This document shows positions 25,730-64,000 of a stretch of 64,000 nucleotides of DNA, one piece after another (the stretch's first letter is position 1; the number at the start of each line of letters is the position of its first letter). The notes below the pieces were generated by a model. That model ran no database searches. It was not told where the DNA came from and worked only from the letters and a program-made list of their open reading frames with translations. Both the position numbers and the translations under genes were made by a program. Source of the DNA: Collimonas sp. PA-H2 (GTDB lineage Bacteria; Pseudomonadota; Gammaproteobacteria; Burkholderiales; Burkholderiaceae_D); the NCBI RefSeq assembly GCF_002564105.1, contig NZ_PDBX01000001.1:4526001-4590000 (forward strand), read 5' to 3'.

Positions 25730-26269
25730 ATGTCGAGCATCTACGGAATCAATCAGGGCCATGCCGAGAACACGGTTTTCTCGGGGAAAAAACAAAATAC
25801 TGCTACTGCATCGTATGTGAAGTTGAAAGACGAGCAATGGGAGAAGCTGGAGCCCATGCTGCGCGGAAAAGAGGGCGATGCCGGCGCCAGGGGCCGCGAC
25901 AATCGCCTGTTCATCGATGCCGTCTTGTGGATTTCAGGCAGCCGCCGCCTGTGGCGCGATCTGCCGCTGCGGTTTGGCAAATGGAACACCGCCTACATGC
26001 GCTTCATGCGCTGGAACCAGGGCAATCTCTGGCGCCGCCTCGCCGAAAACATCACGGACGACCCCAAGCTGCGGGCAGCGTTCGACAACATCGTCGACTA
26101 TGGCGATGAATGGAGCCTGCGCATCAGGCAGCGCGCTTCCAGGCGTGTCAGCCGCGAGGCTTACGATGCGGCCGTCAAGCACGCCACGACCGAAGCGGCG
26201 CAGTCCGCGGGCGACGACTCGACCTTGCACTGGCTCAGCCTGGTGAACGAGAAACTGTCGCCGGAATAA
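25730..26269 (+). CDS. Standalone DUF4096 protein (IS5-type transposase N-domain), long form
   Basis: 179-residue protein. Residues about 30-110 match the N-terminal DNA-binding-type domain of IS5/IS1182-like transposases (DUF4096): LKDEQWEKLEPML, DNRLFIDAVLW, RDLPLRFGKWNTAYMRFMRWNQ. No DDE catalytic domain follows. Instead there is a ~65-residue helical extension ending in LHWLSLVNEKLSPE. The same layout and HWLSLV tail occur in the protein at 61882-62331. It has a 29-residue N-terminal extension and no signal peptide. No terminal repeats or second transposase part lie nearby, which argues for a stable host-type gene, perhaps a DNA-binding regulator, rather than an IS fragment. Function unknown. 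Confidence 0.75.
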   Translation: MSSIYGINQGHAENTVFSGKKQNTATASYVKLKDEQWEKLEPMLRGKEGDAGARGRDNRLFIDAVLWISGSRRLWRDLPLRFGKWNTAYMRFMRWNQGNLWRRLAENITDDPKLRAAFDNIVDYGDEWSLRIRQRASRRVSREAYDAAVKHATTEAAQSAGDDSTLHWLSLVNEKLSPE

Positions 26270-37945: not shown

Positions 37946-38036
<91 letters not shown>

Positions 38037-52080: not shown

Positions 52081-53016
52081 GTAGCTACAGATTTTATGGG
52101 TTTAGCGGCGAACCTCATCCATCGCGCCCTGCGCATGGTCCATGATATTTTCATTAGCAGGAAGTCGGTGTTACTAACATGTTGATTCCATCGACGCGAT
52201 CATCAATGCCATTGATCGTTTGCGTTCAATCCATGCCGCGCACTGACGAAGTAAATGATCCTAAAGGGCAAGATGCCGCCAGTCCATTGCTTTGAGTACG
52301 CTTTTACAATGCTTATGAATTTCATTATTGTTTGGTAATCCTCTGTATTTTTCAGTACACATTTGGCGGATCTTGCCACCTTTCTGAAATGGAAGGCACG
52401 CGTTTGCCATGGAGGATTCAACTCTGAATTTTGCCAATCTTTTCCTGTTTTCCCGCATGGAATGCAGTCTCGAATGCTGATCTGTTTGCGTCTGCAGAAA
52501 GAACAGATGGGATTTGGTACGACGATGGGTGATCTCAAAACAACGAATGATTACGTCTTCATGATGTTTTCGAAAATAGACACTTTGCCGAGTACTTTTT
52601 TATTTCGATGTGGGAATATTGCTCAAGTTAGTACTCGTTAAGAATTCAATGTGCAGGGAATTTTGCATCACCGTTATTCTGGAGCGGCGGCTACTTCATG
52701 AGAGTGCCGCTGCTTATCCTCAAAAGGGAAACATCATGGCTCACACCAAATTCAGCTTGACTTACCTCGCTCCTCGCGCATCTTCATCCGAAGACTTAGC
52801 GCACCGCGCATTCCACTTCCTCTTTCACGATTTCCGGCACAGGTAGCGATAACGCTGCAGCCATCCAGTTAGCGGACTGTCGGTCCGTTATCTTCTGCAT
52901 CATCTGTCGAGTCCTTGCGACAGGTGATACAGATTCCTGCGCCTGGTCAATTTGCATCGCTCATCGCCATGCAAGGCTACGGCATTTTTATCTGTCCCAT
53001 TCAAGAGGGTCGTTAC
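52081..53016. other. Leader region of the sedolisin gene
   Basis: About 940 bp without a large gene. 52258-52345 is closely similar to 61589-61680 (CCATTGCTTTG ... TTTACAATGCTTAT). TTACGTCTTCATGATG at 52551-52566 recurs at 62897-62912 and, with one change, at 61762-61777. A 36-codon frame lies at 52736-52846. Two hairpins follow: GCGGAC-TGTCG-GTCCGT near 52873-52890 and CTGTCG-AGTCCTT-GCGACAG near 52905-52924. Confidence 0.55.
52736..52846 (+). CDS. Possible 36-residue leader peptide
   Basis: ATG at 52736 with AAGGGA 7 nt upstream. The peptide begins MAHTKFSLTYLAP and ends in a His/Phe/Arg-rich stretch (AHRAFHFLFHDFRHR). It is followed by two potential hairpins and then by the sedolisin start 170 nt downstream. 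It could be a small protein or a leader whose translation controls the peptidase gene. Coding status unproven. Confidence 0.35.
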   Translation: MAHTKFSLTYLAPRASSSEDLAHRAFHFLFHDFRHR

Positions 53017-54879
53017 ATGAAATCGAAAAAAATAAGCAATGATGTTTTGGTTGCCCGGGTTTCGGCATTATCGTTGGCATTGTCCCTGGCATTTTCATCC
53101 GTATCCGCCCATGCTGCAATAACGGATAACAGTGTTTGGGTGCCAACCAAGACGCAAGCATTCTTGAAGTACGTGCAAGCGAAACAACGGAGCTTGGCGA
53201 CTGATGTCAATCAGAAGACGCCGTCAGAAGCAGCGGTGGAATTGGTGCAAGGCGAGCCGGTGCATGTGACGGTAAGCTTGAATTTACGTAATGAAGCCAA
53301 GCTCGACCAGTTTTTGCAAGAATTGCATACGCCTGGAAGCGCTTCATATGGAAAAGTTCTGACGCCGGCACAATTTTCCGAAAAATTCGCACCGACAGAA
53401 CAAGATGTAGATAAGGTGGTGAAGCACTTAAGCAAGTCCGGTTTCGTCAATATCACGGTCTCGCCAAATCGCCAGCTAGTGTCTGCAGACGGCACAGCTG
53501 CAACAGTTCAGAAAGGCTTTCGCACTTCGCTGAAACGCTTTCAGCATCAGGGCCGCAGCGTGTTTGCGAATACGGACGTAGTACAAGTACCGGCGGCACT
53601 GGGTAGTATTATCGGGTCTGTGCTAGGGCTGCAAAATGTCGCCATCGCGCACACATTAAGTTCTCAAATCCCTACAACGGAAACAAGCCTGGCGTCGCAG
53701 GGCAAAGCTGCGGCTGTGCCAAATGCTACGCCGGTAAAAGCTTCGCCAAATGCGGCAGCTATTGCCGCTGTGTATAACGGAGGAAACACGCCAACTGCAT
53801 CGACGACGGCCGTTGCCATTATCGCGGTGGGAAATCTGGCGCCAACCCTCAACGACTTAACCCAATTTACAACGAGCAACGGCTTTGCAGCCGTGAATAC
53901 GAAGGTGGTGCAGACCGGTCCAGTGGGCAGTAGCTACGCCGCTGTCAATGGTCAAGACGAGTGGAGTCTGGATAGTCAAGCAATCATCGGAGCTTCTGGC
54001 GGCGCCGTAAAACAAATGACATTTTATGTGTCGCCTGACTTCGGTACTGATAATCTGATTGCTGCCTTTAACCAGGCGGTAATCGATGGCGTGGCCAAGG
54101 TCATTAACGTTTCAATTGGCGGTTGTGAATCGTCGATATTCAACGCCACCGGTTTTGCCGCATCAGACAATGTATTCAGGCAGGCGGTTGCGCAAGGCCA
54201 GACTTTTTCTATCGCGGCAGGAGATGCAGGTGCCTACAATTGCCAATTCAGTCCTGTTTCTGGATCGGCAGGGGTTGTGACGAGCCCAGGGAGCTACGAT
54301 GTCAGCTGGCCGGCAAGTTCACCCTATGTGATTGCGGTTGGCGGCACGGCTGTGTACACCAATGCCGGCGTATACAGTAGTGAAACCGTTTGGAATGATG
54401 GACTGAGTACGATTGGTTCATATTCAGGCGGCTATGATTTTAATCGACGTTTATGGGCAACCGGTGGCGGTTTCAGCAAATACGAGCCTGCACCCGCCTG
54501 GCAGGGCTTAACTGGAAAAGCCAATCGAGGCCTGCCTGACATCGCGTTTGATGCCGCTGGCATTAATATTGTCTACAACAATCAGATCACCGGCCTTCGC
54601 GGCACTAGTGTAGCTGCGCCAATTTTCGCTGGCATATGGGCACGCCTGCAATCGGCTAACGCCAACGGATTGGGTTTTCCAGCCGCAAGTTTCTACAAGT
54701 ACTTTCCGTTGGCAGCTAACTCAGCTTTGTTGCACGACGTTATCTCGGGCACAAACGGCACTACCAATGCAAATGGTTACAAAGCAGCTCAAGGGTGGGA
54801 TGCAACTACCGGTTTCGGTAGCCTGAACATTTCCAATCTCAATACTTTTGTTAAGAACACTTTGGATTTTGCGCGTTAA
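53017..54879 (+). CDS. Secreted sedolisin (S53) serine-carboxyl peptidase
   Basis: 620 residues: Sec signal peptide (about 1-33, LALSLAFSSVSAHA), an activation pro-domain (about 45-215, typical LNLRNEAKLDQFLQELHTPGSASYGKVLTPAQFSEKFAP) and the subtilisin-like catalytic domain. Candidate triad: E315 and D319 (DEWSLDSQ, spaced four apart as in sedolisin) and S531 (LRGTSVAAP), with D403 (AAGDAG) for the oxyanion hole. The C-terminal GWDATTGFGSLN is the calcium-site region. ATG 53017 starts the signal peptide. Active at acidic pH in characterised relatives. Secreted protein digestion would supply the peptide transporter encoded at 29-36 kb, though the loci are far apart. Confidence 0.95.
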   Translation: MKSKKISNDVLVARVSALSLALSLAFSSVSAHAAITDNSVWVPTKTQAFLKYVQAKQRSLATDVNQKTPSEAAVELVQGEPVHVTVSLNLRNEAKLDQFLQELHTPGSASYGKVLTPAQFSEKFAPTEQDVDKVVKHLSKSGFVNITVSPNRQLVSADGTAATVQKGFRTSLKRFQHQGRSVFANTDVVQVPAALGSIIGSVLGLQNVAIAHTLSSQIPTTETSLASQGKAAAVPNATPVKASPNAAAIAAVYNGGNTPTASTTAVAIIAVGNLAPTLNDLTQFTTSNGFAAVNTKVVQTGPVGSSYAAVNGQDEWSLDSQAIIGASGGAVKQMTFYVSPDFGTDNLIAAFNQAVIDGVAKVINVSIGGCESSIFNATGFAASDNVFRQAVAQGQTFSIAAGDAGAYNCQFSPVSGSAGVVTSPGSYDVSWPASSPYVIAVGGTAVYTNAGVYSSETVWNDGLSTIGSYSGGYDFNRRLWATGGGFSKYEPAPAWQGLTGKANRGLPDIAFDAAGINIVYNNQITGLRGTSVAAPIFAGIWARLQSANANGLGFPAASFYKYFPLAANSALLHDVISGTNGTTNANGYKAAQGWDATTGFGSLNISNLNTFVKNTLDFAR

Positions 54880-55511
54880 TCATTCGGCGTGATCGTAGTG
54901 AGTTTGTTTGAAATCGGCCTTCGGATCATCCGGTCCGAAGGCTGGCTGCCTGCGTAGTGGGCGAGTGTTCGCTATGATTAATCTATGATTAATTATAGGA
55001 ATTGAGGGAATGGCGAAATCGGTCACCGAAGAAAAGTCGATAGCTGTCTCGTCCCTTCTGACTCGTTCTTCTCTCAGGTACGTAAGCTCATGCACCTGAC
55101 TTGTGATGGCGGCGATTGCTGAAAAGCGAACGATGCCGCTTTCCTCTCCTGGCGTCAAACATCATTGGCGTTGCAAGTCCTTGGACCCCGGCGATTCTGA
55201 TCCTGTGGCCGTCACCCCGCTGCGCCGGTGAATGGCGCACTTGCCTGGTCAAGCTGCATCGTGCGAGTCATAGCGTCACTCCCGAGTGATGAAAACCCAT
55301 TTTTTAGCCGCACTAACAATTATCCTGTAGGCAAAGATAAGGTAAGAATTGCGCCTGTTCATTTGGGAGCTACTTCCAGGGAAGTCCAGCTATCGTGCAA
55401 ATCCCGCAGGGAAATGTAACAATCGGCATTGAATAGTCGATAGAATAAGAATGATGCATATTTGGCTGCCGATGATTGTAAAAAACGCGTGAAATATCTT
55501 GGATCACTGAA
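54880..55511. other. Intergenic region after sedolisin
   Basis: About 630 bp. A hairpin GCCTTCGG/CCGAAGGC (54917-54942) probably ends the sedolisin transcript, although no T-run follows. From about 55385 to 55511 the sequence matches 59287-59413 upstream of the second regulator copy (CCAGCTATCGTGCAAAT, GTAACAATC, TTGAATAG, GATGCATATTTG), so it belongs to the duplicated module and likely contains its promoter. Confidence 0.6.
54917..54942 (+). terminator. Stem-loop after the sedolisin gene
   Basis: GCCTTCGG, 10-nt loop, CCGAAGGC. No T-tract downstream. Placed 38 nt after the stop codon. Confidence 0.55.
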
Positions 55512-56846
55512 ATGCATAATTCATCAGGCGCGCTTGCCGATATAGATCCTATGTCAGCCGGGTTCGATATAGACCGGGATGGTTTCGTTTCTTACAAAAA
55601 CTCGCTGCTTTTTTTGCCCCCCAAGGAACGCGGGTCCTTTCGTCTATTGCTGAATGCCTGGCCGAAAGTCGTTTCAAAAGAAGATTTTTCAAAAAATGTC
55701 TGGGCCGGGCGCATGTCGGACGAAAGCCTGGCGCGCTGTATTACACAACTGCGCCGAGGTCTCTCCAATCTTGGCGTCGTGCAGATCGATTCCCTTTATG
55801 GCCAAGGTTATCGTCTGACGATCTTGTCGGATAAAGTGAGGCGATTACCGGCATTGCCGGCGGCCCCGCAATCCAGAAAATCCGAGGCAGCAAAGCCGCA
55901 TGCCGCACTAATCGAAGCTTGCATCCACGCCCGGCAATTACTTGAACGTCGTTCGCCTGATGCCTTTTCTCAAGCCGAATCAATACTCAAAAATGTCATC
56001 GCCAAGGCCCCCGACTATATGGTGGCGAAACTGCTGCTCGCACAATACGTAGCCGATAGGGCGTTTTTCGACGGGAACATACAGCGCTCACAAATCGACG
56101 ATGCTCTTGGCGAATTAAGGGCCGTGCAAGATGCCGAGCCATATTTGCAAGGCCTGCAATCACAGATGGGCTATCTCCTCGATTGCAAGTGGCATTTCGA
56201 TGAGGCTAAGGCCGCGCACGAGCAGGCGCTGCAAATGTCGCCTGACGACGACGTCGCCTATTATCGTTATGGTTTTCATCTGCTGACCAGTAATGCTCCG
56301 TCCGAGGCCGTCAGCGCTTTGCGTTCTGCCGTTCAGCTCAATCCATTCTCGCCGAATATGGCGGTCGGACTGGTACGTGCCTACGCTTGCGCAAATATGG
56401 ATCCTGCCGAAGTGCTAGTTCATGCGCGAAGCGCATATTCAGCTCATCCGGATAGTCCTTCGGCTTATGTGAATCTGCTCTACACGCTAGCCTGGGTGGA
56501 TCCGCAACCGGAAATCGCCCATGCGGCGCGTCATTTCGTGCAAAAGAACCGTTATGCGCACGCCCTTTCGTCCAGGGCCGTGGCATACGTACTTGCGCGT
56601 TGCGGCGATCATGCAGGAGCGCTGGAAATCATTGAGAAACATAGCAGTATCCATGGGATACATCTGGCGGCTTTAGTCGCCATGGGAATGCTCGACGAGG
56701 CGATGGAGAAAGTTAATGCCGCTGCTGAAACCGGATTTGGCGTCTTGCCTTTTTCAATCAGCGTTCCGGAATGCGATGCGTTGAAACAGCATCCAGATTA
56801 TGCCCAGGTGCAGGCTAAGGTATTTGGCCGTGTTCCCACGAAATAA
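55512..56846 (+). CDS. Winged-helix/TPR regulator (CadC/HilA-like), copy 1
   Basis: 444 residues. Residues about 15-105 form an OmpR/PhoB-type winged helix (LLFLPPKERGSFRLLLNAWPKVVSKEDFSKNVWAGRMSDESLARCITQLRRGLSNLG, wing VQIDSLYGQGYRLTIL). There is no receiver domain or membrane helix. Residues about 125-440 are helical repeats of TPR type (AHEQALQMSPDDDVAYYRYGFHLL and LVRAYACANMDPAEVLVHARSAY). HilA of Salmonella has a comparable architecture. Very similar to the protein at 59414-60751 and related to the one at 63174. Targets unknown. Confidence 0.85.
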   Translation: MHNSSGALADIDPMSAGFDIDRDGFVSYKNSLLFLPPKERGSFRLLLNAWPKVVSKEDFSKNVWAGRMSDESLARCITQLRRGLSNLGVVQIDSLYGQGYRLTILSDKVRRLPALPAAPQSRKSEAAKPHAALIEACIHARQLLERRSPDAFSQAESILKNVIAKAPDYMVAKLLLAQYVADRAFFDGNIQRSQIDDALGELRAVQDAEPYLQGLQSQMGYLLDCKWHFDEAKAAHEQALQMSPDDDVAYYRYGFHLLTSNAPSEAVSALRSAVQLNPFSPNMAVGLVRAYACANMDPAEVLVHARSAYSAHPDSPSAYVNLLYTLAWVDPQPEIAHAARHFVQKNRYAHALSSRAVAYVLARCGDHAGALEIIEKHSSIHGIHLAALVAMGMLDEAMEKVNAAAETGFGVLPFSISVPECDALKQHPDYAQVQAKVFGRVPTK

Positions 56847-56992
56847 TGAAGAGCGCAACTGAATAAAATTGACGTGGCATTATCCTGCGCTGGCACCGCC
56901 ATTGCCAGATCTTCTGAAGTAAAAATATCGGCAGACTCCCGACAATCTTTTAAAGCATCGCCAGCCAGCCAATGCTGGCAGGCAGGCTGCGT

Positions 56993-57090
56993 CACGATTC
57001 ACGGCTTAACTCTATCGACAATACTGCGGCAATGAACACGCGATTTTTTTGAAAATGATGCGCATTTTTAGGTGGCGACAAAATGAAGTC
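56993..57090 (-). pseudogene. DUF4096-type gene remnant
   Basis: Minus-strand reading gives KKFDFILSPPKNAHHFQKNRVFIAAVLSIELSRES then TGA. It matches KKIDFILSRPKSAHHF(R)KDNRLFIEAVLW...HESWRNLP of the intact gene at 60783-61109, with one codon lost and Trp replaced by stop. Confidence 0.7.
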
Positions 57091-57114
57091 AAATTTTTTC
57101 AATGGAACGAAAAA

Positions 57115-57300
57115 TCAAGATGCTTCCATAACGATTAGCGACGCCGCATAGTCGAGGGCTTTTCTGTAATCTAGCAGGCTTGGATGCGTGAGATCATGCA
57201 AGGTCACTAATCTGCTTTTGAAAGCCAATAGATTGAACTCGGGATCTCCCGTTCTTTTAGAATCAGATAGCGGCAACCTCATTGATTGCATGAGTAAAAA
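57115..57300 (-). pseudogene. Remnant of the 94-residue gene
   Basis: DNA closely similar to 61274-61460. The minus-strand protein can be followed only with frameshifts: AINEV, then a 1-nt loss before RYLIL, further indels, ending DYAASLIVMEAS. The 5' region of a LysR-type gene now overlaps its upstream end. Confidence 0.7.
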
Positions 57301-57343
57301 TTGTTGTGGTAAACCCGGTTATGAACGAAGAGGCCAGCAAAGC

Positions 57344-58267
57344 ATGAAACCACTAGATCTGACGCATTTCGATCTCAACCTTTTGGTTGTACTTGAGGCG
57401 CTTTGGGCCGAAAGACACGTCGGCCGCGCCGCCGAAAGATTGCATTTGTCCCAGTCCGCAACCAGCCATGCTTTATCGCGGCTGCGTGCGGCCTTTGATG
57501 ACCAGCTTTTCATTCGTAACCCCCGCGGGATCGAACCGACGCCGCTGACCGTCGAGTTAATGCCGCGAGTGACGGCGGTGCTCGAGTCGGTCAGGCTCGT
57601 CGCCAGTCCACGTGGCCCGTTCGATCCAGGCCGTTTGCAAGCGATGATTTCAATAGCAGCCACTGATCACGCCATATTGACCGTCATCGCCCCCGTTCTG
57701 GCTAAGATCCAAGCTGCGGCGCCGGGTGTCGTGCTGAGGTTCAGGCCAGCCGATCTCGAATCCGCTCTGCGCATGTTAGACAGCGGCGATCTCGACATTG
57801 TGCTAGGGTCGGGCTCTTTTGCCCAGATCCCGCAGCGTTTTGATTGCCAGCTTATCCATAAGGAGCGTTTCGTCGGCATCGCGCGCAAGGGGCACCCGGC
57901 TTTGGTCAAGCGAGGCAAGAAGCTGCACATGGAACTGGATGACTTCGCTCGGTTGCCTCACATTCTGGTATCGCCGCGCGGCGATACGCGGGGCGCTGTC
58001 GACGATGCGCTGGAGGCCCTCGGTCGTACCCGCAAGGTGAACGCCACCTGTCCCAGTTTTCTGGCTGTTCCGTTCATGGTCGGCGCTTCGCTATCGATAG
58101 CAGTTATCGCCGAGCGGGTCGCACTGCGGATGCAGGAGACTGCGCAGCTGAGCCTTTTTGAGCAGCCTTTGGCGCTACCAACCTGGGAGGTGCTCGTTGT
58201 TCGAGCCCGAGGGCGCGTCAACGAACCCGCCGTTCAGTGGATTACGAACATGATGATCGCCGACTGA
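57344..58267 (+). CDS. LysR family transcriptional regulator
   Basis: 307 residues. An N-terminal winged helix (FDLNLLVVLEALWAERHVGRAAERLHLSQSATSHALSRLRAAFDDQLFIRNPRGIEPT, residues about 7-66) is of the NodD/LeuO-like subgroup, with a periplasmic-binding-protein-type effector domain (about 95-300). ATG 57344 (MKPLDLTHFDLN) is the family start; the frame is open 52 codons upstream into the decayed repeat. It precedes an alpha/beta hydrolase gene in the same direction, a probable target. This gene pair is the cargo between two copies of the duplicated module. Confidence 0.93.
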   Translation: MKPLDLTHFDLNLLVVLEALWAERHVGRAAERLHLSQSATSHALSRLRAAFDDQLFIRNPRGIEPTPLTVELMPRVTAVLESVRLVASPRGPFDPGRLQAMISIAATDHAILTVIAPVLAKIQAAAPGVVLRFRPADLESALRMLDSGDLDIVLGSGSFAQIPQRFDCQLIHKERFVGIARKGHPALVKRGKKLHMELDDFARLPHILVSPRGDTRGAVDDALEALGRTRKVNATCPSFLAVPFMVGASLSIAVIAERVALRMQETAQLSLFEQPLALPTWEVLVVRARGRVNEPAVQWITNMMIAD

Positions 58268-58410
58268 CAGCGGCGGGGGCCTGCCGCGGTGGGAGCGACC
58301 AAGAGGATATGAATCTTGTGCATCGACATGCTGCGTAAATGCCATTGGATCGAATGCTTCTGGCCTCCTAGAATTCGGTTGTCGTTTATTTAACCATCTA
58401 GGAGTACCCC

Positions 58411-59136
58411 ATGAAAACAGAACCCACCTTGGTGATGATCCCTTGCTTCTCAGGAGCTCCGTGGCAGCTTGACCAGTTGACCTACTTACAGAATCGCTCC
58501 ATGCGCACCATTCGTTTGCCCGACGACGTGTGCGAACTGGAGACCTTGGCCGACTTCATCGCTGACCAGGTGAAGGACCTCGAGCGCTATGTGTTGGTTG
58601 GCGATTCGTATGGCGCGGTCTCCTCGATCGCGTTTGCGACGCGGCAGCCGGCGGGCCTGAAGGGCCTGGTGCTCTCTGGCGGTTTTGCCAAGAACCCGAT
58701 TACCTCGCCGTTGCTCAAGCCGCTGGCAGCACTTGTATCGTTCTTCCCCGGGTCCTTTTACCGACAAGCGACCCTTCGGTTCCACGCAGCGCAGTTGGCT
58801 TCGTCGTTTGACAAGGAGGGCGAGATACCTTGGTCAACCGCAAAGAGTCGCGCTCTCTTCATCAGCGAGACGCCGCATAAGGCCTACGTCAACCGCATAC
58901 GCTCGATCGAGAAGGCGGACTATACGGCCCTGCTGAAGAAGATCGATGTCCCCACGCTGATCCTGACTCCCGAAGAAGATAAGCTGATCGGCGAAGAAGC
59001 CGCGGGGATCCTCCGGAAAGGCATAAAGGCTTCGCAGGAAGTAATCATGCCACGCACCGGTCACATGTTCAGGTTCTCGCATCCTGGCGCCTACTCTTTC
59101 GAGATCAGGAAGTTTCTGGAGCGGGCATCGCTGTAA
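58411..59136 (+). CDS. Alpha/beta hydrolase
   Basis: 241 residues. The nucleophile elbow is GDSYGAVSS (Ser near residue 69), the acid may be Asp in LTPEEDKLIGEE, and the catalytic His lies in RTGHMFRFSHPG near the C-terminus. The N-terminal strand reads TLVMIPCFSGAPWQLDQL. It belongs to the broad esterase/lactonase fold; substrate unknown. AGGAG 8 nt before ATG 58411. Regulated probably by the LysR protein encoded upstream in the same direction. Confidence 0.88.
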   Translation: MKTEPTLVMIPCFSGAPWQLDQLTYLQNRSMRTIRLPDDVCELETLADFIADQVKDLERYVLVGDSYGAVSSIAFATRQPAGLKGLVLSGGFAKNPITSPLLKPLAALVSFFPGSFYRQATLRFHAAQLASSFDKEGEIPWSTAKSRALFISETPHKAYVNRIRSIEKADYTALLKKIDVPTLILTPEEDKLIGEEAAGILRKGIKASQEVIMPRTGHMFRFSHPGAYSFEIRKFLERASL

Positions 59137-59413
59137 GGACTCTGCAAATAGAGGCGCCGTCAAGATTCGCGCCGGATATCTTTGGCGTCACATAGGCGCA
59201 TTGTGAAGCCGAAATAGCTCGGATTCCCAAGCGACATCCGCGACCTCTATCGCCCTGGTCGGTAACGAACCGAGGGAATCCGGCTCGCCAGCTATAGTGC
59301 AAATTTCGCGAGGAAACGTAATAATCAGTATTGAATAGCCGCTAGAATGGAAATGATGCACATTTGTTTGTCGATGATTGCAAAAATCGCATGATTTTTT
59401 TTGGGTCAGTCAA

Positions 59414-60751
59414 ATGCATAATTCATCAGGCACACTTGCCGATGTAGATCCTGTGTCAGCCGGGTTCGATATAGACCGGGATGGTTTTGTTTCTTACAAA
59501 GACTCACTTCTGTTTTTACCCCCCAAAGAACGCGGCGCCTTCCGTCTGTTGCTGAATGCCTGGCCGAAAGTCGTTTCAAAAGAAGATTTTTCAAAAAATG
59601 TCTGGGCCGGGCGCATGTCGGACGAAAGTTTGGCCCGCTGTATTACGCAGCTGCGTCGAGCTCTCTCCAATCTTGGCATCGTGCAGATCGACTCCCTTTA
59701 TGGTCAAGGTTATCGCCTGGCGATTTTGTCGGACAAAGTGCGGCGATTGTCCGCTGTGCCGGCGATGGCTCATTCCCCTCACAAATCCGATGTGGCAAAA
59801 CCCCATGCTGCGCTAATTGAAGCCTGCATCCACGCCCGGCAATTATTTGAACGCCGTTCGCAAGATGCCTTTTCCCAGGCTGAATCAATACTCAAGAATG
59901 TCGTCTCCAAGGCTCCCGACTATATGGTGGCTAAACTGTTGCTCGCACAATACGTCGCCGAACGGGGTTTTTTCGATGCGAATATACAGCGGTCACAAAT
60001 TGACGATGCTCTTGGCCAATTAAGAATCGTCGAAGATACCGAGCCATATCTGCAAGGTTTGCAATCACTGAGAGGGCATCTTCTTGATTGCAAGTGGCAT
60101 TTCGATGAGGCCAGGGTTGCGCACGAACAGGCCTTGCAAATGTCTCCCGACGATGACGCCGCCTATTATCGCTATGGTTATCATCTGATCTACACTAATG
60201 CCGGATCCGAGGCTGTCAACGCTTTCCGTTTCGCGGCTCAACTCAATCCGTTCTCAGCGAACATCGCCACCATGCTGGTACGCGCCTGCGCTTGTGCAAA
60301 CATGGATCCGGCCGAAGTACTGGCGCAAGCACGAAGCGCATATTCAGCGCATCCGGACAGTCCCTGGACTTATGTGATCCTGCTCTATACCTTAGCCTGG
60401 GTGGACCCGCAACCGGAACTCGCCCACGCCGCACGTCATTTCGTGCAAAAGAACCGCTATGCGCACGCCCTCACGTCCAGGGGCGTAGCTTACATACTTG
60501 CGCGTTGCGGTGATCATGCAGGAGCGCTGGAGATCATTGAAGAGCATAGCAGCATTCATGGGATACATCTGGCGGCTTTGGTCGCCATGGGAATGCTTGA
60601 CGAGGCGATGATAAAAGTGAAGGCTGCTGCTGAAACCGGATTTGGCGTCTTGCCATTTTTACTCAATATTCCAGAATCTTCTGCATTGAAACAACATCCG
60701 GATTACGCCCAGGTGCACGCCAAGGTATTTGCCCGCATGCCTAAGGGATGA
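59414..60751 (+). CDS. Winged-helix/TPR regulator (CadC/HilA-like), copy 2
   Basis: 445 residues, aligned end to end with copy 1 at 55512-56846 (same MHNSSG start, identical RMSDESLARCITQLRR and SIHGIHLAALVAMGMLDEAM). Differences are mostly conservative and spread across the TPR region. ATG 59414 is chosen to match copy 1; an upstream in-frame ATG at 59378 exists but falls in the conserved leader. The sequence between 59290 and 59413 parallels the leader of copy 1. Probably a cytosolic DNA-binding regulator whose TPR part senses a protein partner. Confidence 0.85.
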   Translation: MHNSSGTLADVDPVSAGFDIDRDGFVSYKDSLLFLPPKERGAFRLLLNAWPKVVSKEDFSKNVWAGRMSDESLARCITQLRRALSNLGIVQIDSLYGQGYRLAILSDKVRRLSAVPAMAHSPHKSDVAKPHAALIEACIHARQLFERRSQDAFSQAESILKNVVSKAPDYMVAKLLLAQYVAERGFFDANIQRSQIDDALGQLRIVEDTEPYLQGLQSLRGHLLDCKWHFDEARVAHEQALQMSPDDDAAYYRYGYHLIYTNAGSEAVNAFRFAAQLNPFSANIATMLVRACACANMDPAEVLAQARSAYSAHPDSPWTYVILLYTLAWVDPQPELAHAARHFVQKNRYAHALTSRGVAYILARCGDHAGALEIIEEHSSIHGIHLAALVAMGMLDEAMIKVKAAAETGFGVLPFLLNIPESSALKQHPDYAQVHAKVFARMPKG

Positions 60752-60782
60752 ATGATATCGACGGGAGAAATATTCTATTGCT

Positions 60783-61109
60783 TCATTGCCTGTTTTGATC
60801 GAAGCGCTCGCAGAACAGAACGATTTTATCCAATAGAAATTGCAGTTCTCGATCTTCAATCTGACTGTGTGCCAAAGCGTGCCAGATTTTACGCTGATGC
60901 CAGTCGAGCAAGCGGAGGTAATGGGCAGGCCATTTGCCAAACCTGGGCGGCAGATTGCGCCATGATTCATGGTTTAACACTATCCACAATACTGCTTCAA
61001 TGAATAGGCGATTGTCTTTTCGAAAATGATGCGCACTTTTAGGGCGCGATAGAATGAAGTCTATTTTTTTCCAATGATCGTCAGCTAGTTTTTCGCCGTA
61101 TATCAACAT
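60783..61109 (-). CDS. Standalone DUF4096 protein, short form
   Basis: 108 residues comprising almost only the IS5-transposase N-terminal domain: LADDHWKKIDFILSRPKS, RKDNRLFIEAVLWIVLNHESWRNLPPRFGKWPAHYLRLLDWHQRKIW. No DDE domain, no inverted repeats flanking. It lacks the HWLSLV tail of the longer forms. It converges on the regulator gene (31-nt gap). A decayed homologue occupies the same place in copy 1. Confidence 0.65.
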   Translation of the reverse strand: MLIYGEKLADDHWKKIDFILSRPKSAHHFRKDNRLFIEAVLWIVLNHESWRNLPPRFGKWPAHYLRLLDWHQRKIWHALAHSQIEDRELQFLLDKIVLFCERFDQNRQ

Positions 61110-61273
61110 CTACTGTCCAGTAATAATTTAAGCCTGGCTAACCCACTGTTGTCATCCGAGATCGTGTCGACAGCATGGCGGCGATGACGTGCGTCATGAT
61201 CAGCCCCAGTGGAATTTTTCAATATGTGCTCACTATAACGAGCGATGCTCCGAATTTTCAGTGGAGCGGAAAA

Positions 61274-61558
61274 TTAAGGCGCCTCTATAACGATCAGTGA
61301 CGCCGCATAGTCGATGACTTTTTTGTAAGCCGGCAGGCTGGGATGCGTGAGATGACTCAAGGTCACTAAGCGATTTTTGAAAGCCAACAGATTGATTTCC
61401 GGATCCCCTGATTTTTTCAGAATCAGATAACGGCAAACTTCATTGATCGCGACATGCACCTGGCCGATAGCATTCATGCCGTAAAGCGTAAGCGCTGCCA
61501 GGTTTGAGATTTTATCGATGCATTCATCGAGCACTTTGTCGTTGGAGATAATTTTCAT
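61274..61558 (-). CDS. Unrecognised 94-residue helical protein
   Basis: ISNLAALTLYGMNAIGQVHVAINEVCRYLILKKSGDPE, LLAFKNRLVTLSHLTHPSLPAYKKVIDYAASLIVIE. Predicted all-alpha with a conserved THPSxxxYKxxxxYAAxLI block shared with the decayed copies at 57115-57300 and 48696-49050. No known domain recognised. It is transcribed toward the DUF4096-type gene with a 164-bp gap, which suggests but does not prove an operon. Confidence 0.6.
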   Translation of the reverse strand: MKIISNDKVLDECIDKISNLAALTLYGMNAIGQVHVAINEVCRYLILKKSGDPEINLLAFKNRLVTLSHLTHPSLPAYKKVIDYAASLIVIEAP

Positions 61559-61881
61559 ATGGTTTAGACGGCATGATGATTAAGGAAATCATCCTAGAGA
61601 TCAAGCTGCCATCAGTCCATTGCTTTGTGCGATCTTTCACAATGCTTATCAATTCCAATCTTATTTGGTAACACTCAATGCTCGCCGGCAAGTATTCGGC
61701 GTGTCTTTTTGTTTTCGCGGGTGCTGCGCGCACTGTGTTGAAGACGAAGATTCATCAATGTTTACGTCTTCCTGATGATTTAGTTAATCATTGTTTTTGT
61801 ATGTCACACGAAGAAAATAATCATTTATATTACATTCAGTGTCGGCCGCGTGACGGTCGGTTTATCTCTCTTATGTAATGG
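61559..61881. other. Shared leader region between divergent small genes
   Basis: 323 bp between the 94-residue gene (minus) and the long-form DUF4096 gene (plus). 61589-61680 repeats sequence found at 52258-52345. TTACGTCTTCCTGATG at 61762-61777 matches elements at 52551 and 62897. It probably contains promoters in both directions. AT-rich. Confidence 0.5.
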
Positions 61882-62331
61882 GTGCCAGTCATGTTTCTTC
61901 GAGATGATCAGTGGGGGAAATTGGAGCCGCTAATGCTTGGCAGAAAGGGTAATCCTGGAGTCAGCGGGCGTAATAATCGGCTGTTTATCGAAGCCGTGCT
62001 TTGGCATATTTCCGGCAAATGCTGCTGGAGCGAATTGCCATCTGAATTTGGCGGGTGGAATTCCGTCTACATGCGATTCAGGCGTTGGAACCAGAGCGGC
62101 TGCTGGCGCCAAATGCTTGAAGATCTGAGGGATGACACAGAGTTGTCTGGCGTAATCAGGCGCATTGCGGCATACGCTGACCAACAGACGCAAAGCGCAG
62201 CGAGAAGAAAAACCAGGAGAGCCGAGCGCGAGATTTATCGGGCATCGGTAACGCACATTGGAAAAGAAACAGCAGCGTCTAACGATAGTGAGGCAGACAG
62301 TCATTGGCTGTCGCTGGTGGATGCCGTTTGA
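61882..62331 (+). CDS. Standalone DUF4096 protein (IS5-type transposase N-domain), long form 2
   Basis: 149 residues. The DUF4096 domain occupies about 5-85 (LRDDQWGKLEPLMLGRKGNPG, NNRLFIEAVLW, ELPSEFGGWNSVYMRFRRWNQ). The extension has RRAEREIYRASVTHIGKETAAS and ends SHWLSLVDAV. The protein at 25730-26269 has the same extension layout (REAYDAAVKHATTEAAQS ... LHWLSLV). GTG 61882 or ATG 61891 may start it. A 72-residue gene follows after 29 nt. Not flanked by terminal repeats. Confidence 0.75.
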   Translation: MPVMFLRDDQWGKLEPLMLGRKGNPGVSGRNNRLFIEAVLWHISGKCCWSELPSEFGGWNSVYMRFRRWNQSGCWRQMLEDLRDDTELSGVIRRIAAYADQQTQSAARRKTRRAEREIYRASVTHIGKETAASNDSEADSHWLSLVDAV

Positions 62332-62360
62332 CTAATGCCGATTTAAAATCCTGAACGAAA

Positions 62361-62579
62361 ATGAAGAGATTTGCACATATCGTTAATGCGGAAAAATTGG
62401 AAGAGAAGTTGACGGCTGATTTTCAGGGCACTCAAGCGGATGACAACGCCAGCATTCATATGCATGCAGAAAGAGAGAAATGTGAAATTGTCGCGAGAAA
62501 AAAAGTCGAGGCGCGTCGAATGCTTGAAGATGCTTTGGAAGAAATCAGGCAGCGCCAGGCCGAGTGGAGCGCCAGGTAG
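62361..62579 (+). CDS. Small coiled-coil protein next to DUF4096
   Basis: 72 residues, highly charged and helical (ARKKVEARRMLEDALEEIRQRQAEWSAR), with MKRFAHIVNAEKLEEKLTADF at the start. Likely a coiled coil. Same direction and 29 nt after the DUF4096 gene, so possibly co-expressed. No known family recognised. Confidence 0.5.
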   Translation: MKRFAHIVNAEKLEEKLTADFQGTQADDNASIHMHAEREKCEIVARKKVEARRMLEDALEEIRQRQAEWSAR

Positions 62580-63173
62580 AAGCAGACGTGGCCGACGAGT
62601 CTTGCTTAGCTTTTGCGATTGCTTATGCGATCATGACGGCAATTAAATAATGCGCTCAGATTGCTCAGATCTTGGCATTAGAAGAACCACTGGACTTCCT
62701 TCTTGGCGATGCTTTCACTGGCGTGATGTGTGAGTATGTGTCGCTGCTGAACACGCTATCCATCTGGCGCCATGCGTGTCTTTTATCGGGATTGCTAACC
62801 GAATCCTTACGAAATTATCGTTGATGCCGTAGGCTGATAAGAGCGTGGGAGATGATATGTGTCGAGCAGAAGGAGTAGGGCGGCAACGACCAATAATTAC
62901 GTCTTCATGATGATTTTGTAAGCTAGTGTTTATTGTCGCTACAAAGGCGCAAAGTGCATATAGCATTAGCAAAGATCTCGATAGCGTTTGGGATGAAACG
63001 ATAGCTTCCCAGGTCAAATCTGTCTGAGAACAGGACTGAAGGTAAAGCGATTTTCAATATTCTTGAAAAGAATAAGTCCTATGTCGCCGACTGTGAGGTC
63101 GGGCTTGGGTTGAAAATATTGAGCAGTGAGAGATAAAAGCAATAGTTGTTTTCGAATATTACAAGAAAAGAAA
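62580..63173. other. Leader region of the third regulator copy
   Basis: About 590 bp with no convincing gene. The element TTACGTCTTCATGATG lies at 62897-62912, about 260 nt before the regulator start. The leader does not resemble those of copies 1 and 2. Confidence 0.5.
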
Positions 63174-64000
63174 ATGCAGCCCTGGCATCGGAACATTTCG
63201 GGCATTGCTCCCGCATCTATTGGGCTTATGGTCGATCAATATGGATTTGTGGCTTATAAAAATTCAGTACTCGATTTGCCGCCCAAGGAGAGGGGGGCAT
63301 TAAGTCTTTTGCTCCAGGCATGGCCGAAGTCGGTTTCAAAAAAAGACTTTGCCCTGCATGTATGGAATGGGCGGATGTCAAACGAAAGTCTCGCGCGTTG
63401 CATGGCGCAGCTACGGCGAGTACTCTCGCATATTGGCATGATAAAAATTGATTCATTGTACGGGCTCGGATATCGCCTGAGCATCCAGCCAGGTGATGTT
63501 GATGCATCGACTCAGTTTCCAGCCGATCGTGGCCAGCAATCCGGTACGGTCAAGGTGCACCCTTCAGTAGCGGCAGCGTGTTTCTACGCGCAGCAAGTTC
63601 TCCAAAATCATTCGCCAACGGCTTATGATAGAGCGGAATCGATCATCAACCATGTGATCTCTCAAGCCCCCGATTACATCCCGGCGCAACTGGTGCTGGC
63701 CCAATGCAAGGCTAACCGGGCGATCAGTGGAACGCCTGGCAGTCCGCAAGCGATTGACGAAGCGCTGAAAATACTGGCCTCTATTGAGCGCGCCGAGCCA
63801 GGCGCATCGGGTTTGCATTCACAAAAGGCTTATCTTCTCGATGGCAAGTGGCGGTTTAATGAAGCTCGGCTGATGCATGAGCAAGCCTTGCTTCTGGCGC
63901 CGGAAAGTCCTGCCACGCATTTCAATCATGGCTTGCATCTGCTCGCGACTGGCGCAGCTGCCGATGCCGTCACGGCGTTCCGCTCCGCCATCGAATTGAA
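63174..64000 (+). CDS. Winged-helix/TPR regulator, copy 3 (runs off the window)
   Basis: Open from ATG 63174 to the window edge (275 codons, no stop). The winged helix is recognisable: SVLDLPPKERGALSLLLQAWPKSVSKKDFALHVWNGRMSNESLARCMAQLRRVLSHIG followed by IKIDSLYGLGYRL. TPR-like repeats follow (AEPGASGLHSQKAYLLDGKWRFNEARLMHEQALLLAPES). It is clearly more diverged from copies 1 and 2 than they are from each other, so it is an older paralogue. The purine-rich AAGAAAAGAAA precedes the ATG. Confidence 0.8.
   Translation, partial: MQPWHRNISGIAPASIGLMVDQYGFVAYKNSVLDLPPKERGALSLLLQAWPKSVSKKDFALHVWNGRMSNESLARCMAQLRRVLSHIGMIKIDSLYGLGYRLSIQPGDVDASTQFPADRGQQSGTVKVHPSVAAACFYAQQVLQNHSPTAYDRAESIINHVISQAPDYIPAQLVLAQCKANRAISGTPGSPQAIDEALKILASIERAEPGASGLHSQKAYLLDGKWRFNEARLMHEQALLLAPESPATHFNHGLHLLATGAAADAVTAFRSAIEL

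Follow-up and report, generated by a model that had tools for sequence, protein, structure and literature searches.

A putative adhesin regulon in Collimonas combining HilA-like regulators, a shared upstream element and solo DUF4096 proteins

Introduction

Three related regulator genes, here called R1, R2 and R3, lie near the right end of a 64,000-nucleotide stretch of Collimonas sp. PA-H2 DNA (hereafter the window; positions 4526001-4590000 of contig 1, in a 5.95-Mb genome of two contigs), together with small genes for solo DUF4096 proteins and for a 94-residue protein. Which genes do these regulators serve, and does the cluster form a unit of its own? When the sequence was extended to the right, as a preliminary description of the window had proposed, R3 was completed, and it was followed by the gene of a giant trimeric autotransporter adhesin and then by another DUF4096 gene. 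With a probability of roughly 0.57, we consider the locus to be an adhesin regulon, in which HilA-like R activators act through a shared DNA element and a domesticated DUF4096 protein serves as an accessory regulator.

Under this proposal, R3, perhaps with R1 and R2, would bind an element of about 45-60 bp, and binding would jointly activate the adhesin gene, R3 itself and the promoter region from which the DUF4096 and 94-residue genes diverge. The solo DUF4096 protein, whose predicted helical N-terminal part is followed by a long helix and a flexible linker, and in most cases by a conserved C-terminal tail, would be the product of a fixed cellular gene and most likely an accessory DNA-binding regulator at the adhesin and at other loci. 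The suggested role of R as an adhesin activator leans on the precedent of EilA, a regulator of the adhesin gene air.

Gene order, selection, synteny, the missing catalytic half of the DUF4096 proteins, the element and its distribution were all computed. A genus set of 15 genomes was searched for R, DUF4096, the 94-residue family, YadA anchors and the element, and family-level searches covered 195 genomes taken from a larger group. Ratios of nonsynonymous to synonymous substitution rates (dN/dS) were obtained with our own Nei-Gojobori script. Expected neighbor counts assume uniform placement; adhesin extents were estimated from open-frame lengths, and distances to adhesins are therefore approximate. 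Positions are those of the window unless marked as genome positions.

Three HilA-like regulators under purifying selection

The regulators and their leaders are as follows.

55386-55511, forward strand: leader and promoter region of R1; it is conserved among the R paralogs from three species
55512-56846, forward strand: R1, HilA-like winged-helix/TPR regulator of 444 aa, closest to C. humicola hum_a (dN 0.039, dS 0.40)
59288-59413, forward strand: leader and promoter region of R2
59414-60751, forward strand: R2, HilA-like regulator of 445 aa, closest to C. humicola hum_b (dN 0.038, dS 0.37)
63174-64000, forward strand: R3, HilA-like regulator that reaches a full length of 448 aa beyond the window edge; the adhesin gene comes directly after it

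R1 and R2 are both intact and 84% identical, and the two copies match at 86% over a 300-nt stretch that crosses from leader to gene. R3, the diverged third regulator seen preliminarily at the window edge beside a DUF4096 gene (61882-62331), shares 46% identity with R2 and is also intact, finishing beyond the edge. All three carry an N-terminal winged helix of the OmpR type (Trans_reg_C; 31.1, 32.2 and 30.2 bits for R1, R2 and R3, with a Pfam cut-off of 26.2), and no receiver domain (Response_reg) was matched in R1, R2 or the window fragment of R3. TPR_14 and TPR_19 are above cut-off in R1 and R2 and below it in the R3 window fragment. The top NCBIfam family for R1-R3 is HilA/EilA (NF009037), at 67-77 bits versus an equivalog cut-off of 589; we do not file them as HilA or EilA, and suggest that they may work like them.

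The closest named relatives of the regulators come from Collimonas humicola and Glaciimonas soli. A scan of the PA-H2 genome at E 0.001 gave three R matches, and 16 R genes were counted in 3 of the 15 genus genomes at E 1e-20. Selection on the regulators had been surmised from their open frames, and the ratios agree: pairs that include a PA-H2 gene give dN/dS of about 0.10-0.24 where dS was computable, with a maximum of 0.27 among the pairs listed. R1 and R2 differ from each other (dN 0.087) more than each differs from its own C. humicola ortholog, so that their duplication predates the split of the two species, and a recent strain-specific tandem duplication was rejected. Two near-identical R genes of G. 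soli (loci L046 and L047; dS 0.04) lie on different contigs with similar upstream DNA and no partner genes nearby, as if recently copied; a VgrG (type VI) gene lies near the orphan R gene of L046.

A giant adhesin as the more constant neighbor

The adhesin gene (genome 4591009-4599186), the largest of the locus, starts about 490 bp past R3. Its product matches the ESPR signal (PF13018) and the YadA stalk (PF05662), with the YadA anchor (PF03895) in the same frame, and the further DUF4096 gene behind it lies at genome 4599466. The order DUF4096-R-adhesin on one strand is found in PA-H2, C. humicola (L045), G. soli (L048) and C. arenae (L145), so that the association reaches beyond a single strain. 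At the last three loci the adhesin starts show ESPR plus YadA head or stalk domains, and the C. arenae DUF4096 gene is short, with stops in its profile match. At another R locus (L051), an adhesin start lies about 5.5 kb away.

Adhesins are frequent in the genus, with 77 YadA anchors in 13 of the 15 genomes. Within 1 kb of an adhesin end, we counted 19 of 108 DUF4096 genes (0.31 expected), 3 of 16 R genes (0.07) and 1 of 36 94-residue genes (0.12); within 5 kb, the counts were 29 (1.55 expected), 8 (0.37) and 10 (0.61), respectively. All 28 DUF4096-adhesin pairs no more than 3 kb apart are on the same strand. Around the 16 R genes, a DUF4096 gene lies within 2 kb at seven (0.25 expected) and a 94-residue gene at five (0.11 expected). 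The module's more constant neighbor is the adhesin, not a closed set of R, DUF4096 and 94-residue genes.

Two other features were seen beside adhesin genes. A fragment in L239 (G007:C11:1532647-1533015) looks by eye like the TPR region of an R protein. It lies between an intact 94-residue gene and an element-bearing adhesin, and the locus is apparently a second copy with a decayed regulator. Proteins fusing BamE to OmpA are encoded next to adhesin genes at L028:7111-7983 and L238:1916-2734; these two were tested, and similar open reading frames (ORFs) were noticed by eye at further adhesin loci.

A shared element upstream of three genes of the locus

Comparison of the intergenic gaps revealed a stretch common to those before the DUF4096 gene and before R3, which also precedes the adhesin gene. 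Its copies, and a degraded one, are listed here.

61762-61787, forward strand: element, between the divergent 94-residue and DUF4096 genes, 95 bp ahead of the latter
62897-62922, forward strand: element upstream of R3
genome 4590799-4590824: element upstream of the adhesin gene, outside the window
52551-52576, forward strand: degraded element with one core mismatch and its flanks lost, at least 339 bp before a pro-kumamolisin-type peptidase gene
53011-54879: the pro-kumamolisin-type peptidase gene, with the degraded element upstream

Shuffle tests on whole gaps gave a modest excess (134, 156 and 178, where the highest values among 200 shuffles were 122, 137 and 170), so that more weight was placed on a pattern scan. 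With up to two mismatches, TTACGNCTTCNTGATGRTTTNGNNAA has 10 matches in the 15 genomes, with 4, 2 and 4 in the three genomes that hold R genes and none in the other 12, and the reversed control pattern has 0 matches in the 15 genomes. The ten sites precede adhesins (five, one of them about 790 bp off with a small ORF in between), DUF4096 genes (two), R3 (two) and the peptidase gene (one, degraded). G. soli has three further sites, before DUF4096, R3 and the adhesin. In the nine sites outside R3 promoters, the conserved stretch spans roughly -15 to +45, followed at +64 to +69 by a T-A-N-A-T-T block that may be a -10 box; the columns above threshold beyond +50 number 13, versus a shuffled maximum of 5, a control that ignores the orthology of some sites. 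Element shuffles preserve base composition only, not the kinship of sites.

A matrix built from 12 sites scored three more C. arenae adhesin promoters and a stretch 125 bp before a C. humicola 94-residue gene above 14 (shuffled maximum, -0.2). Of the adhesins no more than 20 kb from an R gene, a limit of our own choice, 8 of 9 have the element upstream, versus 0 of 14 others (Fisher p 1.8e-5). This comparison covers 23 of the 77 adhesins, the other 54 having no upstream DNA in the sample, and the sample is non-random and biased, as loci were fetched because they held DUF4096, R or 94-residue genes. The three C. arenae sites, held out from the matrix, score 22-30 versus at most -7.4 for adhesins lacking the element (3/4 versus 0/14, p 0.005).

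Does R bind the element, or is it merely a neighbor of an element bound by the DUF4096 protein or by a third regulator? An autoregulated factor would be expected to have the element before its own gene, as the DUF4096 gene does, and AraC-type or response-regulator genes are present at some other adhesin loci, which would fit one dedicated regulator per adhesin. However, DUF4096 genes occur in 14 of the 15 genomes and the element only in the three with R genes, which makes DUF4096 less likely as the binder, although this argument is not decisive since the DUF4096 branch of the R locus is itself less widespread. On balance, we judge R as a bystander to be unlikely.

It is more improbable that the element has no operator function and is a passive relic, either of a segmental duplication of adhesin promoters or of the end of a mobile element. 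In favor of this, genomes do contain duplicated adhesin loci, the site at 52551 has a relic-like appearance, and some of the sites compared are orthologous. Against this, the element precedes three unrelated kinds of gene, keeps a fixed spacing to the TA.ATT block in the nine non-R3 sites and varies little across species with R-gene dS of 0.37-0.54. An operator through which R would act on the adhesin remains our preferred interpretation of the element.

Solo DUF4096 proteins as stable cellular genes

DUF4096 is described as part of IS4/5-family transposases, and the regulators are HilA/EilA-like; the initial impression that the system matches nothing known was therefore too strong. In the genus, 108 DUF4096 matches occur in 14 of 15 genomes (2-17 per genome), 100 of them in ORFs of 108-195 aa; PA-H2 holds 15 genes and one 40-aa remnant. 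At E 1e-25, the family was found in 24 of the 195 genomes and in 10 genera. The domain (PF13340) scores above the Pfam cut-off, and a C-terminal tail like D-S-T-L-H-W-L-x-L-V is present in 77 of 104 distinct ORFs, two matches in a single ORF being counted once. A few other endings, such as NWIWLLTHK, look like tail variants, and several adhesin-linked copies have no tail.

These genes are inherited in place. Of the 108 matches, 105 entered the synteny and flank analyses, the three in ORFs no longer than 100 aa being dropped. Groups defined by shared neighbors span 13, 12, 10, 9 and 8 genomes, and 18 of the 105 are ungrouped. One member unlinked to the R locus lies in the window.

25730-26269, forward strand: solo DUF4096 gene with shared neighbors in 8 of 15 genomes

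Median dN/dS is 0.10-0.33 over 16 groups, with 0.49 for the highest single pair; ORFs of at least 210 aa were excluded, as were pairs whose dS was saturated or did not exceed 0.05 and those with no more than 80 aligned codons. The catalytic half of the transposase is missing. No genus genome (0/15) has an IS5_3 transposase (NF033580) above cut-off. Among the 131 matches to this family, 111 start by position 25 and all 111 end by 131 of 258; the other 20 are parts of the remainder, including four equal-scoring PA-H2 transposases that match at 55-251. A DDE-like motif, searched for downstream as a regular expression without positive control, was found at 0 of 105 loci. DDE_Tnp_1 genes are present in 13 genomes, and one of them, among the four equal-scoring transposases, sits on the opposite strand between a PA-H2 DUF4096 gene and its adhesin. 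Flank comparison, which included no direct search for terminal inverted repeats, gave similar flanks within a genome in few pairs only, the majority at duplicated adhesin loci; the pair at 156872 and 3706364 shares 234 bp upstream at 75%.

Live IS5 elements were accordingly rejected, on synteny, purifying selection, the few like flanks and the missing catalytic half. Could the genes still be hitchhikers at adhesin islands, either left over from IS5 or serving as the first ORF of a mobile element? The identity of the domain speaks for it, and among the best 120 of 5187 matches, the named entries, from Collimonas, Glaciimonas, Paraherbaspirillum and Herbaspirillum, mostly read 'transposase'. Another genus of the family has nine matches of identical score, as expected from a live element, and a few true remnants exist in Collimonas, for example G007:C11:1410342-1410713, where fragments of both halves lie together. 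The synteny, the purifying selection, the N-terminal position of the 111 IS5_3 matches and the scarcity of like flanks argue the other way, and make hitchhiking very improbable. By sequence, the solo DUF4096 protein appears to be a domesticated N-domain of an IS5 transposase, without the catalytic half and vertically stable.

While the case for stable genes is a good one at the sequence level, that the proteins are regulators is a step that we infer. DNA binding is suggested by the origin of the domain, as no fold match in the PDB was significant. In the predicted model, the N-terminal part is helical, residues 86-132 form a helix and the end is of low confidence. Two unusual architectures were noticed: a 303-aa ORF (G003 L138:3887-4798) that joins DUF4096 to a region with a weak HTH_3 match below cut-off, and a 298-aa ORF (G008 L196:3950-4846) with two DUF4096 domains.

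Small genes of the locus and the 94-residue family

The following small genes accompany the regulators.

56968-57099 (approximate), reverse strand: relic of a solo DUF4096 gene, behind R1
57121-57258 (approximate), reverse strand: relic of a 94-residue gene, behind R1
60783-61109, reverse strand: short solo DUF4096 protein of 108 aa without the C-terminal tail; C. humicola has the same short form
61274-61558, reverse strand: 94-residue protein, intact, four predicted helices, mean pLDDT (predicted local distance difference test) 90
61882-62331, forward strand: solo DUF4096 protein of 149 aa with C-terminal tail SHWLSLV, upstream of R3
62361-62579, forward strand: small ORF of 72 aa between the DUF4096 gene and R3, with family matches below cut-off only; it may not be a gene

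The preliminary description had read this region as a repeat, with a decayed copy 1 around R1 and an intact copy 2 around R2. The shared leader, R1, R2 and the reverse-oriented small genes do recur, and copy 1 does combine an intact regulator with DUF4096 and 94-residue genes reduced to relics. The two copies are nevertheless separated by LysR regulator and alpha/beta hydrolase genes (57350-59136), the 94-residue relic being just upstream of LysR, and copy 2 is whole only in R2 and the 94-residue gene, since its DUF4096 gene is the 108-aa form, ending short of the linker and tail found in most relatives while the profile match continues past the stop. The PA-H2 and C. humicola short forms are 82% identical with a dN/dS of 0.11 (that single pair), and their sharing this form implies either an early truncation or a short form that has been kept. 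The DNA of the 72-aa ORF is similar in G. soli and C. humicola, with insertions and deletions.

For the 94-residue protein, no Pfam or NCBIfam match at E 0.1 and no PDB relative by sequence at E 1 was found, and second structural looks at it and at DUF4096 (Foldseek, VIA-align) gave nothing useful; modeling predicts a helical bundle. The family has 36 members in 11 of the 15 genus genomes and, at E 1e-6, occurs in 12 of the 195 genomes and in three genera. Copies at such loci in three species have dN/dS of 0.27-0.45, and a PA-H2 adhesin-linked pair (at 436 and 5251 kb) has 0.08. Elsewhere in PA-H2, a VgrG gene lies about 1 kb from a 94-residue gene (L038:7318-10128).

A separate, self-contained system of R, DUF4096 and 94-residue genes, as first envisaged, is the least credible explanation: the three do cluster in PA-H2, C. 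humicola (where the 94-residue gene is truncated) and G. soli, but R occurs in 3 of the 15 genomes, the 94-residue family in 11 (8 of them without an R gene) and solo DUF4096 in 14, and four of the 7 named R loci (L046, L047, L049, L050) have no DUF4096, 94-residue or adhesin match in the stretch fetched.

As to the setting, G+C is about 55-69% before about 38 kb of the window and mostly 45-56% beyond, except for 0.58-0.61 near 45-48 kb, so that the R locus falls within the compositionally distinct, lower-G+C part. A tRNA-Ser gene (37946-38035) sits where G+C drops, possibly at an island edge.

Weighing the adhesin regulon

Several points weigh against the regulon as proposed. Binding of R to the element, activation by R, DNA binding by DUF4096 and any role of the 94-residue protein are all steps that we infer. 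The association of element and R gene varies with the distance limit, being 7/8 versus 1/15 at 10 kb and 5/5 versus 3/18 at 5 kb; moreover, 5 of the 8 element-bearing adhesin sites trained the matrix, and paralogous adhesins are non-independent. One adhesin 5.4 kb from an R gene has no element, with an AraC-type gene nearby, and the matrix scan gave no element scoring above 14 at R1, R2 or the orphan R loci. As the element and the R genes share one locus, common descent could explain part of their co-occurrence.

For the DUF4096 proteins, 81 of the 108 genes lie more than 3 kb from any adhesin end, and 27 of the 104 distinct ORFs have no tail under the pattern used. Three R-adjacent genes (PA-H2 4586783, G003 2832235 and G007 1513464) have in-frame stops within the profile match. 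Sequence searches of the PDB and fold comparison with DUF4096 gave no significant match supporting DNA binding, and upstream of eight DUF4096 groups no motif common across groups was seen by eye.

Relation to known systems and significance

HilA has an OmpR-type winged helix without a receiver domain and a large C-terminal region, and HilA-like regulators are known mainly from gut bacteria. R resembles HilA (Salmonella SPI-1) and YgeH (ETT2) in all three features, but no type III secretion genes were recognized by eye beside R, and the linked candidate target is an adhesin. The nearest precedent is EilA with air, where a HilA-like regulator is likewise tied to a surface adhesin and whose family, NF009037, is the top match of R1-R3. 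It differs in several respects: R falls far below the equivalog score, the hosts are Collimonas and Glaciimonas with R in multiple copies, the adhesin here is a trimeric autotransporter with ESPR, and DUF4096 and 94-residue genes belong to the locus. EilA is described as a regulator of air in enteroaggregative E. coli (PMC7781526), and EilA and YgeH of strain 042 are reported to be able to replace HilA (PMC4210603). The R locus is real and multi-species, and the proposed HilA-like adhesin control would be a variant on the EilA-type theme.

Solo DUF4096 proteins share their domain with IS5-family transposases (NF033580, PF13340) and differ from them in the absent DDE half, the frequent tail and the syntenic inheritance. 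Bacterial transcription factors recruited from mobile elements, such as Ner/SfsB and antitoxins, of Xre and RHH types, are described in a review (PMC8987985), in the text of which 'IS5' occurs 0 times. The parallel is a mobile-element DNA-binding domain kept by the host, which for DUF4096 presupposes DNA binding, and the difference is one of type, Xre or RHH there and DUF4096 here. Transposon-derived transcription factors are reported across animals (PMC10027918). A broader scenario, which we offer tentatively and at somewhat less than even odds, is that in Collimonas and its relatives an IS5 N-domain was severed from its catalytic half, gained a conserved C-terminal tail and expanded into vertically inherited transcription factors, one branch of which was wired with HilA-like regulators and a private operator into the control of giant surface adhesins.

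The finding turns an unexplained repeat into a putative regulon with a candidate operator and target, and it indicates that stable cellular genes make up a family for which 'transposase' is the usual label. Should DUF4096 proteins bind DNA, they would exemplify, in bacteria, a transposase N-domain turned into a multigene regulator family, and HilA-like control of adhesins in soil bacteria would widen this regulator class.

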